Positions 10,300 to 40,127 of a DNA stretch of 64,000 bases are shown here, piece by piece. The notes beneath the pieces were generated by a model, which did no database searches, was not told the DNA's origin, and saw nothing but the letters and a program-made list of their open reading frames with translations. The position numbers were made by a program, and so were the translations under genes. Origin of the DNA: Rhodovulum sp. MB263 (GTDB lineage: Bacteria > Pseudomonadota > Alphaproteobacteria > Rhodobacterales > Rhodobacteraceae). Each line of letters opens with the position of its first letter. The stretch's first letter is position 1. Location: positions 3,162,001-3,226,000 of the forward strand of contig NZ_CP020384.1 of the NCBI RefSeq assembly GCF_002073975.1. The letters run 5' to 3'.

Positions 10300-10373
10300 G
10301 GCCCCTTAGCTCAACTGGATAGAGCAGTCGACTTCTAATCGACAGGTTGAGGGTTCGAGTCCTTCAGGGGTCG
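10300..10373 (+). tRNA. tRNA-Arg (anticodon TCT)
   Basis: A 74-base cloverleaf folds cleanly: acceptor GGCCCCT with AGGGGTC (one G-T pair), D arm from GCTC to GAGC, anticodon stem GTCGA/TCGAC around the loop CTTCTAA (anticodon TCT at 10334-10336), and a T arm with loop TTCGAGT. CCA is not encoded; the discriminator is G. It would read the AGA codon, rare in GC-rich alphaproteobacteria. Lack of CCA and its place inside an island suggest a mobile-element-borne tRNA. A diverged partial partner occurs at 12466-12516, where the same downstream sequence is repeated. Confidence 0.92.
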
Positions 10374-10386
10374 CGCTGTGCGTCAA

Positions 10387-23346: not shown

Positions 23347-24071
23347 AAGCCACTCGGCAGAAATCACGGCCTTCCTTCGCCGATCATGTCTACAACACGC
23401 TCTATGGACGGATCAGCAACGGAGATTATCCGCCGGATGAGAAGCTGCCTTCCGAGACGACGCTGGCGGCCGAGATCGGCGTGTCCCGCCCCGTTCTGCG
23501 GGACGCGCTCGAGCGGCTGCGTGCCGAGGGGCTGATCGTGTCGCGGCAAGGAGCCGGCAACTTCGTCCGCGCGCATCAGTCACGGACCCTGGGCTACGGC
23601 CGGATCGAGACGATCGCCGACATCCAGCGCTGCTACGAATTTCGCCTGACGATCGAGCCGCAAGCCGCGCGCTTCGCGGCCGAACGGCGCAATGACGAGG
23701 CGCTGGCGAACTTGTCGAACGCACTGGACCTGATGCGGGCGGCGACCGGCTCGATGCTGCACCGTGAGGATGCGGACTTCACTTTCCACATCGCCGTCGC
23801 TCACGCCGCAAACAACACCTTCTTCGAGGCGACCCTGCGAGCGCTGCACGAGCAAATCTCGGCAGGGATGAAAATGCACGGACAGTCGCTCTTGCGTGAG
23901 GGTGGGGCGGGCCTGGAGCGGGTGCTGCACGAACATCAAAGCATATTCGATGCTATCCTGGCGTCAGACGGCGAGGTCGCCGCCAACCGCATGACGGCAC
24001 ATGTCCGCCACTCTCAGGAACGGCTTTTCGGAGGCGCGAGCATTGATTTGAGAATGCCGGTGAAGAAATAA
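23343..24071 (+). CDS. GntR-family transcriptional regulator with FCD domain
   Basis: The 242-residue protein has a winged helix-turn-helix (YGRISNGDYPPDEKLPSE ... VSRPVLRDALERL, residues about 15-75) and an all-helical FCD ligand domain with EFRLTIEPQAA and a metal-binding His set (DADFTFHIAVA, ALHEQI). It starts with GTG inside the kinase stop (GTGA overlap), so it is the last gene of the rightward operon. Such regulators repress their own catabolic operon until the substrate binds. The two ACAAGTTG palindromes in the divergent region are the natural candidates. An IS481 element begins right after its stop codon. Confidence 0.92.
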   Translation: MKATRQKSRPSFADHVYNTLYGRISNGDYPPDEKLPSETTLAAEIGVSRPVLRDALERLRAEGLIVSRQGAGNFVRAHQSRTLGYGRIETIADIQRCYEFRLTIEPQAARFAAERRNDEALANLSNALDLMRAATGSMLHREDADFTFHIAVAHAANNTFFEATLRALHEQISAGMKMHGQSLLREGGAGLERVLHEHQSIFDAILASDGEVAANRMTAHVRHSQERLFGGASIDLRMPVKK

Positions 24072-24534
24072 TACGCCCACTTAACCTTCTTCCCATGCTG
24101 TTTTGGGAAAGGAGGACCCCGCCATGGATGGAACACCGAAAGCGACGAAACCCAAGACTCGTGACGCGAAGACCAAGATCGCGCAAAACCGCATGAGCGT
24201 TCTGGAACTGGCGAAAGAACTCGGCAACGTGGCCGAGGCCTGTCGCCAGCGCGGCATGGACCGCACCAGCTTCTACGAGTGGAAACGTCGGTTTTGGGTT
24301 TGAGGGACCGTGGCGCCGGTGGCGCCGCGTAAGCCCGAGAACGGGCTTCGAGGGGCTCAAGGACCTGCCGCCGATCCACAAGACCCACCCTCAAACGACC
24401 CCGCCCGAGACGGTCGAGCGGATCAAGGCGCTGGCGCTCGAACATCCGGCCTATGGCTGCAACCGCTTCGAGGCGATGCTGGCGCTCGAGGGCGTGCGGG
24501 TCTCCTCGATCACCATCCAGAAGATCCTGAACGA

Positions 24535-24572
24535 TCGCCAGCGTGGCGCCACCGGTTCGAGCCCGCTGGCGA
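24535..24572 (+). repeat. T-arm-like hairpin insertion, copy 1 (38 bp)
   Basis: The core has a stem CGCCACCGG/CCGCTGGCG (8 of 9 pairs) around the loop TTCGAGC. An alternative 9-base pairing (TCGCCAGCG with CGCTGGCGA) spans the whole insert. It sits between AACGA and CGGCCTGG, where the transposase family has GA-CAA-CGG (Asp-Asn-Gly). Confidence 0.7.
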
Positions 24573-24929
24573 CGGCCTGGGCACGCGCTACGACCGCTGG
24601 CTGGCGCTCGAGGACGCCCATGCGGGCCAGACCATCGAGATCACTGCCGAACAGGCCGCCTTCCTCGAGAAGCAGAACCCGTGCTTCCGGGAACGACACG
24701 TGGAATCAGGCACTCCCGGCGAGCTGCTCTCGGCCGACACGTTCTTCGTCGGCATGCTGAAGGGGATCGGCAAGGTCTATCTGCACGCGGTCGTCGACAC
24801 CTTCGGCAGCTACGCCTTCGGCTTCCTGCACGTTTCCAAGCAGCCCGAGGCGGCGGTCGCGGTCCTGCACAACGACGTCCTGCCCTTCTACCGCGCCCTG
24901 GACCTGCCGGTGAAAGCGGTGCTGACCGA

Positions 24930-24971
24930 GCGAGCCATTGAAGGCGCCATTGGTTCGAGCCCAATGGCGAG
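24930..24971 (+). repeat. T-arm-like hairpin insertion, copy 2 (42 bp, in frame)
   Basis: A perfect 9-base stem CGCCATTGG (24945-24953) with CCAATGGCG (24961-24969) encloses the loop TTCGAGC. It lies between ACCGA and CGGCCGC, replacing CAA at the catalytic Asp-Asn-Gly of the IS481 transposase. The net gain of 39 bases keeps the frame. Confidence 0.75.
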
Positions 24972-25291
24972 CGGCCGCGAATTCTGCGGCACCGAGCGTC
25001 ACCCCTACGAGCTCTATCTCGACCTCAACGCAATAGAGCATCGCCGCACCAAGGTCCGCACGCCGAAGACCAACGGCTTCGTCGAGCGGTTCAATGGCAC
25101 GGTGCTGGAGGAGTTCTTCCGCGTGAAGATGCGCGAGACCTTCTACGAGACTGTCGCGGCCCTCCAGGCCGATCTCAACGCCTGGCTCGTCCACTACAAC
25201 ACCGAGCGCCCGCATCTGGGTTACCGAAACATGGGGCGACGTCCCATCGAAACCGTCATGTCATTCGTTAGTCAAGAAGGTTAAGTGGACA

Positions 25292-25402
25292 GATCGTTTC
25301 GCAGCCCTCCCCCCCTGTCAAACCCGAGGATGGCCCATGGGCGCCCATTTCTTCGTCGTGACGAGCGGCCCCGGTGCGGGCAAGACCAGCCTGATCACCG
25401 AG
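25292..25402 (+). pseudogene. Fragment of the small AAA ATPase gene (copy of 583-692)
   Basis: The sequence from GATCG through CCTGTCAAACCCGAGGATGG and the first 22 codons repeats the 0.6-kb ATPase gene with few substitutions and a 2-base indel. It retains Walker A SGPGAGKTSLITE, then stops matching after the GAG codon at 25400-25402. The IS481 end abuts it on the left. It cannot encode a functional ATPase. Confidence 0.88.
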
Positions 25403-25498
25403 ATTGTGCATCGCTCAGCCAGTAAAGATTGCTCATCGGTCAGGTCTCCTTGCGGAGCCTGAATCATGCCAAATGCCTGAAATCAATGGGTCTGGAGC
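25403..25498. other. Short spacer with a GC hairpin
   Basis: Between the ATPase fragment and the end of the IclR gene lies AGGTCTCC TTGC GGAGCCT, a small imperfect hairpin near 25441-25459 without a T run. No gene is seen. Confidence 0.35.
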
Positions 25499-26311
25499 CT
25501 AGAGACTGGCATTGACGGCCCGGGCGGCCTCTGTCGCTACCGGTGCGGCATGGCGCACGAATGCATCCCGTGTCCATTCCGAAAGCGACCCGGCGACATG
25601 GATCGCGCCAAGCGGCACCCCGTCGCGATCCGCGATGGCGACACCTATGGCAACCTCGCCCTGAACGAACTCGTCGACCACGACTGCATAACCCTCGGAT
25701 CGGGCCTGGGCGATCAGCGCGAGGATGCTGTCAGGATCATTGACGGTCTTCGAGGTGAACTTGAGCAGCTGCGAACGCATCACGACCGCGCGGGCGGCGT
25801 CATCGGACAAGGCCGACAGCACCGCACGCCCCCCGGCGGTGCAAAATGTCGGCACGCTGTGGCCCACGAGGGTCGCATAGAAGGTCTCGCGCTTGCTCTG
25901 CATGCGCAGCGCATAGACCAACCGGGTTTCGTCATAGAGGCTGAAATCGACGCGCTCGCGCACCGTCTTGCGCAACTCCAGCAGGACCGGCGTCGCCTTC
26001 TGCACCACCGGATCGAGCCGAAGCACGTCGAGCGTGTGATCCAGCAGCCGGATCCCCGGCAGATAGCCCCGGTCGTCGTGGCTGCGCCGCATGTAGCCCA
26101 GCGTGACGAGCGTATGGACCATCCGCTGGACCGCCGAGCGATCGAGCTTCGACCGGGCCGCGATCTCCGACAGGCTGAGAGGCCCGCTGGCATGATGAAA
26201 CGCGCTCAGGACCCGCATCGTCCGGCCGACCGCGCGCACGAAGAGCTTGTCTTCCTCTGCCGCCTCAAAATCAGTCATTTGCGCCGGTTCGGCGCGAAGA
26301 ATGCTCGCCAT
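25499..26311 (-). CDS. IclR-family transcriptional regulator
   Basis: The protein of about 270 residues has an N-terminal winged helix-turn-helix (SLSEIAARSKLDRSAVQRMVHTL, about residues 45-67) and the IclR effector domain with RVDFSLYDETRLVYALRM and PTFCTAGGRAVLSAL. It is divergent from the peptide/amide operon that starts at 26444 and so probably controls it. Start choice: ATG 26311 (MASILRAEP); a GTG at 26320 and an ATG at 26278 are possible. A perfect inverted repeat at 26372-26388 in the divergent region is a candidate binding site. Confidence 0.9.
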   Translation of the reverse strand: MASILRAEPAQMTDFEAAEEDKLFVRAVGRTMRVLSAFHHASGPLSLSEIAARSKLDRSAVQRMVHTLVTLGYMRRSHDDRGYLPGIRLLDHTLDVLRLDPVVQKATPVLLELRKTVRERVDFSLYDETRLVYALRMQSKRETFYATLVGHSVPTFCTAGGRAVLSALSDDAARAVVMRSQLLKFTSKTVNDPDSILALIAQARSEGYAVVVDEFVQGEVAIGVAIADRDGVPLGAIHVAGSLSEWTRDAFVRHAAPVATEAARAVNASL

Positions 26312-39299: not shown

Positions 39300-39457
39300 C
39301 ATTCCATGGTTCGCTCTGTTCAGGGTTTTGCCCTCTGCTGACCGCTGGCGATATTCCCAAGGGGGTGAGCCCATCGCGGCTGGTGTGGAGGCAATGATGA
39401 GGGGTGCAGCCGTAGCGCCAGGCCGCGATCAGCCCTCGGGCATGGTCGTCCCGTGAA

Positions 39458-39484
39458 GGTGCCATCGGTTCGAGCCCAGTGGAC
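39458..39484 (+). repeat. T-arm-like hairpin insertion, copy 4 (diverged)
   Basis: CCATCGG and CCAGTGG flank the loop TTCGAGC (one mismatch and one wobble pair). It interrupts the IS3-type transposase after FAN, reading against the direction of that gene. The conserved core GGTTCGAGCC is the same as in copies 1 and 2. Confidence 0.5.
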
Positions 39485-39648
39485 GACGGTTGGCGAACAG
39501 GTGCTCATTCATGCACTCATCGCGCAGGCGGCTGTTGAAGTTCTCGACAAAGCCGTACCGCATGGGCCTGCCCGAGGCGATGTCGTGCCATTCCACCTTG
39601 CGGTCTTCCTGTCGGCGCAGGATGGCAGTCGATGCCAGGTCCGTACCA

Positions 39649-39673
39649 TCGCCAATGGTGCTCGAAGCGGCGA
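39649..39673 (-). repeat. T-arm-like hairpin insertion, copy 3 (25 bp)
   Basis: On the minus strand it reads TCGCC, then GC, the loop TTCGAGC, then ACCATTGGCGA. The ends TCGCC/GGCGA pair and the right arm matches copy 2. It directly precedes TGGTACGGAC, where the family has GA-CAA-TGG, so CAA is missing as in copies 1 and 2. Confidence 0.55.
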
Positions 39674-40127
39674 CGTATCCACCGGCAACTCGCTGATCCC
39701 CCTGCAGGCATATGCGGGAGCAGCGGGCGAACCGATTGCAAGGCCTCTGCGGCGACGCATACATGACGGGCACGCCCTTGGACCATAACCCGTTATTCTT
39801 GATTTCCATCAGTTCGCCAGGCACCTTTCGCTCATCGCTGCCACGCATCTGGAGGATCGGACACCAGTCCGGAAGACCGTTTTCCCGAAGACCGGCCGCG
39901 ACCGCGTCATCCCGACCTCGGTCAGGCAGGAAGCCCCGCCCCTCATGCCCCATTGTTCGGGCATATGAAACGCGCAGCGAAGGCCTGCTTACGGGCTCTG
40001 GCCCGAGGGCGACCCGGACATCGCGGCCCGGATTGGCCGACATGAACATCGCGACGCCCGGACCGGACGCCGCGATGGAAAGCGAATTCAGCGCGCGGAA
40101 AAGGATACAGGGCCTGCGCGCGGGGGC

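Follow-up and report, generated by a model that had tools for sequence, protein, structure and literature searches.

Three hairpin inserts in an IS481 transposase gene

The stretch of DNA analysed here, 64,000 nucleotides of the Rhodovulum sp. MB263 genome (contig NZ_CP020384.1, positions 3,162,001 to 3,226,000; 'the window' below, with positions counted from its first letter), contains an insertion sequence (IS) of the IS481 family on the plus strand at 24074..25291. Its inverted-repeat ends read ...CCCACTTAACCTTCTT / AAGAAGGTTAAGTGGACA, with the exact ends placed by eye, and its transposase gene is split by three hairpin-forming inserts on the same strand. Two of these belong to what we call family 1. 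The insert at 24535..24574 is a variant with a paired foot, TCGCC...GGCGA (covariance model R1, E 1.2e-10), and the one at 24930..24972 has the typical form GC-GA-[stem]-GA-GC (E 2.1e-15), with 43 nt replacing 4 nt. A preliminary description of the window had reported two related inserts in this gene, and both were found where it placed them, as exact matches to GCCANNGGTTCGAGCCCNNTGGCGA (24548-24572 and 24946-24970), as matches to the covariance model and by their absence from an intact copy of the element in the same genome (L211). It overlooked the third insert, at about 24298..24342, which is likewise absent from L211 and belongs to another hairpin family (family 2), with a GT..AC foot, an apical GTGGCGCC-GGT-GGCGCCGC and a left edge uncertain by a few bases. 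A further occurrence of GCCANNGGTTCGAGCCCNNTGGCGA with three mismatches lies at 39461-39485, and 100 shuffles gave no match. On its own, the 10-mer GGTTCGAGCC shows no genomic enrichment (39 matches compared with 37 for the reversed control). Two of its genomic matches, at L007 and L008 (around position 1501-1510), are by eye the T arms of tandem tRNA genes and thus ordinary.

A 346-base piece of the IS481 element has seven matches in the genome, one of them just 38 bases long, and five of the six long matches carry family-1 inserts. The sixth, L211, is 98% identical over the 346 bases and has an open transposase frame of 348 amino acids without inserts. At the second family-1 site it reads CTGACCGA[TAAC]GGTCGC, so that GC...GC stands for those 4 nt, and the first site has CTGAACGAAAACCGCCTGG. 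Four of the five carriers also have the family-2 insert; the fifth, L212, diverges throughout its 5' part. Because five copies have inserts and one about 98% identical copy has none, the inserts are neither ordinary coding sequence nor misassembly. The five carriers, one of which contains a stop codon and another lacks a base, sit in different surroundings, which indicates that the spread of this IS481 element postdates the insertions. Most simply, the interrupted copies would have been moved in trans by the insert-free copy. An attempt to read selection from private changes among the IS481 copies was dropped, as these changes are scarce and gene conversion may have contributed to them.

Structure of the family-1 hairpin

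Family-1 elements are 41-43 nt long and follow the plan NN-GA-GCCATTG-(0-2 nt, rarely more)-GGC-GCCAYYGGTYCRA-GCC-CAATGGC-GA-N'N' in 191 parsed copies, which were selected for pairing of the outer arms; 146 of them have the GA/GA foot. In the model alignment, both sides change in 11 of 12 outer-stem pairs, and the covariation comparison gives 93.7% paired as against at most 41.6% in slid controls, in rows that were again pre-selected for pairing. Another 117 copies were picked solely on the inner pattern; in 103 of them 6-7 of the 7 outer-arm positions pair, and the mean is 6.48 against a maximum of 6.02 in 200 arm shuffles.

The preliminary description had noted a stem of about 9 bases with the 7-base loop TTCGAGC. 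The compensatory changes fall in the outer stem, not in the T-arm-like inner one. Of the 117 copies, 91 have both variable positions paired outside and 73 have them paired inside. When the 51 copies whose variable dinucleotide is not AA are considered, 18 pair outside only, 3 inside only, 16 both ways and 14 neither way, giving 34 that pair outside and 19 inside, and the inner hairpin is for this reason considered secondary. Although conserved, its T-loop-like centre does not form the covarying stem. The resemblance to a tRNA T-loop, also pointed out earlier, holds for the 7-base loop, which fits the T-loop consensus, and goes no further, as there is no recognisable tRNA structure around it. 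ARAGORN predicted a single tRNA in the window, a tRNA-Arg at 10300-10374, and none at the inserts. An Rfam search of positions 24000-25600 at E<=1 returned no tRNA and nothing relevant, and nine carrier loci had no match at E<=0.1.

The predicted RNA fold of the copy at 24930 has paired terminal dinucleotides, a G.A foot, the outer stem and a small tip; the terminal pairs are missing from that of one 41-nt copy. Predicted DNA folds give the inner hairpin for the 24930 copy and the outer stem for the 24535 copy. Four TCGCC...GGCGA variants of family 1 (L048, L050, L074 and L075) lie in seemingly intergenic, terminator-type sequence with G runs on both sides, and may be a separate lineage.

Ends, target and replaced bases

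The terminal dinucleotides of 102 non-redundant sites with the GA/GA foot are complementary in a limited number of combinations: GT..AC in 41, GC..GC in 18, TC..GG in 17, AT..AT in 8, CT..AG in 6, TG..CG in 3 and others in 9. The base after the element is G at 94 of these sites, and the base before it is A at 69 and G at 30; the target can be written loosely as GR|4-5 nt|G. At 20 of the 102 sites a G.T wobble forms the first terminal pair, and at one site A.C does, so one strand is the folded one.

Empty relatives were scored by searching the two flanks separately, and 40 of the 102 sites were scorable. The replaced window is 4 nt at 24 of them, 5 nt at 15 and 2 nt at one, and it is 4 nt at all eight TC..GG sites. 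At roughly half of the 5-nt sites the element and the replaced stretch end in the same base, so the true window there may be 4. A first scoring had set four N at the junction and dropped gapped rows in two runs, and therefore missed other sizes; with the flanks searched apart, a fixed window of exactly 4 nt was rejected. The replaced bases vary (CAAC, TAAC, CCAG, CCAC, CATG, TCAA and others). The trinucleotide CAA, earlier proposed as the replaced unit, must thus give way to 4 or 5 nt of variable sequence, and CAA is absent at the first site in L211.

Insertion context and orientation

An NCBIfam search was run on 86 fragments from 89 non-redundant sites found with the exact pattern. Families matched most often are IS3 (17 fragments), IS481 (12), IS21 (9) and IS5 (8), with fewer matches to IS256, IS66, IS30, IstB and IS110; these counts are not additive, because one fragment may match several families. 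SecA and a few further cellular families were matched by one fragment each. In a sample of 20 sites checked individually, 17 have a transposase match at E<=0.01 and 15 at E<=0.001; eight of the 17 came from the first fragment and nine more from another frame or side, and L106, L116 and L124 gave no transposase match. In the Rhodovulum sp. MB263 genome, 10 of 14 loci have such a match, and the other four (L184, L197, L202 and L203) have none, though by eye their text resembles IS genes. Some copies, chiefly of the TCGCC...GGCGA variant and of a third hairpin family described below, are intergenic by eye.

Strand and frame could not be taken from the longest open reading frames, because in such GC-rich sequence they stay open with 3, 4 or 5 junction bases alike, and this approach was rejected. 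GC content by codon position classified 39 of the 102 sites as sense and 20 as antisense and left 43 uncalled; against independent or by-eye assignments in 14 listed rows, it agreed in nine, made no call in five and disagreed in none. The excess of sense insertions (p 0.018) may reflect the target motif, and no conclusion is drawn from it.

Repeated, target-specific insertion into transposase genes, as the preliminary description suggested, is borne out across IS of several families. The D-N-G codons (GACAACGG) are a recurring site, and their repeated use is attributable to the target motif. In three IS481-type genes with pairwise dS of 0.76-1.26 and dN/dS of 0.10-0.23, the elements at the D-N-G site differ at only 0-1 of 43 positions. 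Such near-identity in genes so diverged favours repeated insertion over common descent. These three genes (L090, L115 and L120) are the only ones used for dN/dS, as most other pairs compare uncertain frames.

Distribution of family 1

A search of related Rhodobacteraceae, proposed at the outset, recovered a dispersed family. With a sequence pattern allowing at most 2 mismatches, family 1 turned up in 48 of the 295 host-family genomes, compared with none for the reversed-pattern control. The covariance model, built from 37 copies, has 40 matches in the Rhodovulum sp. MB263 genome at E<=0.1, of which 32 are below 1e-3. Across the class, 9 of 337 genomes match it at E<=1e-4: the genome itself, three more of its family and five from other families. 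These rare matches in other families (three copies in G455, and others in G303, G436, G358 and G519) possibly reflect horizontal spread with IS. A public genome collection contains at least 120 stretches, and among the 80 matches listed most titles are Rhodobacteraceae-type. Two strict patterns for half elements, applied to 207 loci, gave six rows, all of which are by eye full elements with substitutions; no other search for a longer autonomous relative was made.

Further hairpin families and other features

Family 2 consists of GT-GA-GACGGG-ACCGTGGCGCCAGTGGCGCCGCGAAAG-CCCGTC-GA-AC and relatives, and was found in 17 of 120 genomes, with 4 for the reversed control; a family-2 regular-expression scan gave no rows. 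The third family, GT-GA-GGAGGATCA-GAAAACGATCC...-CCGAC-GA-AC, was found in 22 of the 120, with none for the control. An automatic parse of family 3 assigned a foot to 36 of 50 apical hairpins, 14 of them GT..AC, and misplaced several, so the foot rule common to the families rests largely on rows read by eye. At one related IS site, L070 (family 1) and L147 (family 3) occupy the same position, both with TC..GG ends. A single IS3-type transposase region of about 1.5 kb (G046:C24:25370-26840; L260 and L278) contains three family-1, three family-2 and one family-3 matches. Two family-3-like elements, L256 1474-1535 (minus) and L266 1470-1535 (plus), have an extra hairpin on the 5' side, with one foot enclosing two hairpins between GT-GA...GA-AC ends.

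Elsewhere in the window, the preliminary description had listed a diverged, reversed copy at 39458-39484. It is a diverged member of family 1 on the plus strand (model R1 39451-39482, E 0.0016; pattern with 3 mismatches), extending by eye over about 39445..39487, with a GT..AC foot and G as the next base, and it lies apparently antisense in what looks by eye like an IS3-type transposase remnant. Another listed copy, at 39649-39673, has no model match at E<=10; by eye a putative decayed hairpin may precede TGGTACGGAC here (about 39649..39689, minus strand). About 11 kb before the window, a reverse-transcriptase domain match (G000:C1:3150746-3151240, E 1.8e-8) lies in an open frame of 1236 amino acids.

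Comparison with known small mobile elements

By analogy, these hairpins appear to work like the very small mobile hairpins of cyanobacteria and mitochondria, and they do not qualify as miniature inverted-repeat transposable elements (MITEs) or as repetitive extragenic palindromic (REP) sequences moved by RAYT. We recognised no description of such an element in the openly licensed PMC literature. One close likeness is to the small dispersed repeat (SDR) elements of Nostoc from the work of Elhai et al. in 2008 (Genome Res 18:1484), which are reportedly cyanobacterial hairpin-forming sequences of 21-27 nt with compensatory mutations, forming unlike families with one structure and often found inside mini-transposons. 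Very small hairpins, unlike families with a common structure and compensatory changes in the stem are seen here too; in contrast, the present elements are 41-47 nt long, occur in Rhodobacteraceae-type hosts and have a G.A foot, complementary terminal dinucleotides and a 4-5-nt replacement. Rickettsia palindromic elements also lie inside alphaproteobacterial genes, but are larger and in frame in cellular genes, whereas here the orientation varies and the length may be 41, 42 or 43 nt. MITEs differ in that no target-site duplication is seen here and the empty sites show the 4-5-nt replacement.

For the hairpin elements of sponge and Allomyces mitochondria, we know of no common end rule or IS bias. 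The repetitive hairpin-forming elements of sponges (PMC2800124) and the double-hairpin elements of Allomyces (cited in PMC4478555) are likewise tiny, invading and of several structural types, and they are organellar and mainly intergenic. Yeast mitochondrial GC clusters such as GC42 are mobile hairpins (42 nt for GC42) under structural constraint and with an unsettled mechanism (PMC4478555); unlike these, the elements described here replace bases.

A model for hairpin insertion and its alternatives

We estimate a probability of roughly 60% that the inserts are a non-autonomous micro-mobile element moved in trans by way of a folded single strand. As shown by comparison of the sequences, the insert behaves as a discrete unit that takes the place of 4-5 nt, with complementary stem and terminal dinucleotides, in both orientations and mostly beside transposases of many IS families. 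The fold is conserved, the wobble is one-sided and the foot is common to the families, which together suggest that a single strand is recognised in its folded form, either as RNA or as single-stranded DNA (ssDNA). An enzyme supplied in trans, or a host pathway, would recognise this strand by its G.A/G.A foot, a window of 4-5 nt would be opened at the target and the hairpin joined in its place, with the last two base pairs either set at insertion or brought by the hairpin. The insertion would break the transposase, and carrier IS copies could then be mobilised by intact relatives and serve as vehicles for the hairpins.

Several observations weigh against this model. No mover was found: a Y1 transposase (PF01797) matches in 1 of 15 carriers and 2 of 15 genomes free of family 1, and reverse transcriptase occurs in 5 of 15 carriers and 8 of 15 family-1-free genomes, with no association; 'free' refers to family 1 only, as some of these genomes hold family-3 matches. 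Mobility is deduced from comparison alone, 62 of the 102 sites have no scorable empty relative, the replaced window varies in length and the replaced bases fail to predict the class of terminal dinucleotide. Some inserts may also be old, evolving in place at sites common to related IS.

The alternatives differ mainly in what would write the hairpin. In an RNA copy-and-paste process, the hairpin transcript would be reverse-transcribed into a nicked target, as a bacterial counterpart of short interspersed nuclear elements (SINEs), with the 4-5-nt loss following from the geometry of the cut. The compensatory changes, the T.G wobble on one strand, the similar foot and bulge plan predicted for the RNA of one family-1 and one family-2 copy, and two RVT_1 matches in the Rhodovulum sp. 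MB263 genome all fit; the same pairing is, however, explicable by ssDNA, and the occurrence of the element is not matched by that of reverse transcriptase genes, so that we regard this process only as a tentative option. Silencing of IS by a host defence that places hairpins in their genes could account for the bias to transposase genes (17 of the 20 sampled sites) and for multiple hairpins per IS. It is nevertheless unlikely, given that the hairpins pile up in IS that are already broken, that some copies, mainly of the TCGCC variant and family 3, are intergenic by eye, and that no associated gene was found. Somewhat more doubtful still is a REP-type element on whose ssDNA hairpin a RAYT or Y1 HUH transposase would act. 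The REP and REPIN sequences associated with RAYT (TnpA-REP) are described as hairpin repeats of 20-50 nt, some with conserved irregularities (PMC8266576, PMC3733652), and the size, the foot-mismatched hairpin and the predicted ssDNA folds agree with this. In contrast, the foot here is NN-GA...GA-N'N' with no GTAG (or CGTC) tag, the sites adjoin transposase sequence instead of being intergenic, target bases are replaced, and no PF01797 match was found in the Rhodovulum sp. MB263 genome (100% complete, with its 32 model matches below E 1e-3) or in 14 of the 15 carriers.

The two remaining explanations would leave the transposase working or the insert unreal. A mobile translational-bypass element, or a mini-intron removed from RNA, would keep the transposase functional, in line with the dispersal of five interrupted IS481 copies in the genome. 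This is very improbable, since insertions occur in both orientations, the insert-free copy is available to act in trans, one carrier has a stop codon and another a lost base, and the carriers have an altered D codon, part of the DDE triad. Normal coding sequence or an assembly error, for which one can cite that some inserts keep the frame (43 nt for 4), has a next to negligible chance given the insert-free copy in the same genome and the presence of the element in 48 of 295 genomes.

Beyond the model of a non-autonomous element moved in trans, it is conceivable, though we consider it a speculative extension, that the hairpins form a structurally defined class of at least three unlike families with a common foot rule, NN-GA...GA-N'N' and in most cases G as the next base. 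A dedicated pathway, undescribed and aimed at IS, would then write them into transposase genes, each time giving up 4-5 nt of target for a hairpin folded as RNA or ssDNA. For the open question of how the smallest mobile elements move, the system offers many copies, an empty copy alongside the filled ones in a single genome, tightly constrained ends and ordinary environmental bacteria as carriers, which opens the chemistry of insertion to testing. Should IS really be the aim of insertion, this would add a further level at which bacterial parasites interact, or a new route of silencing them.
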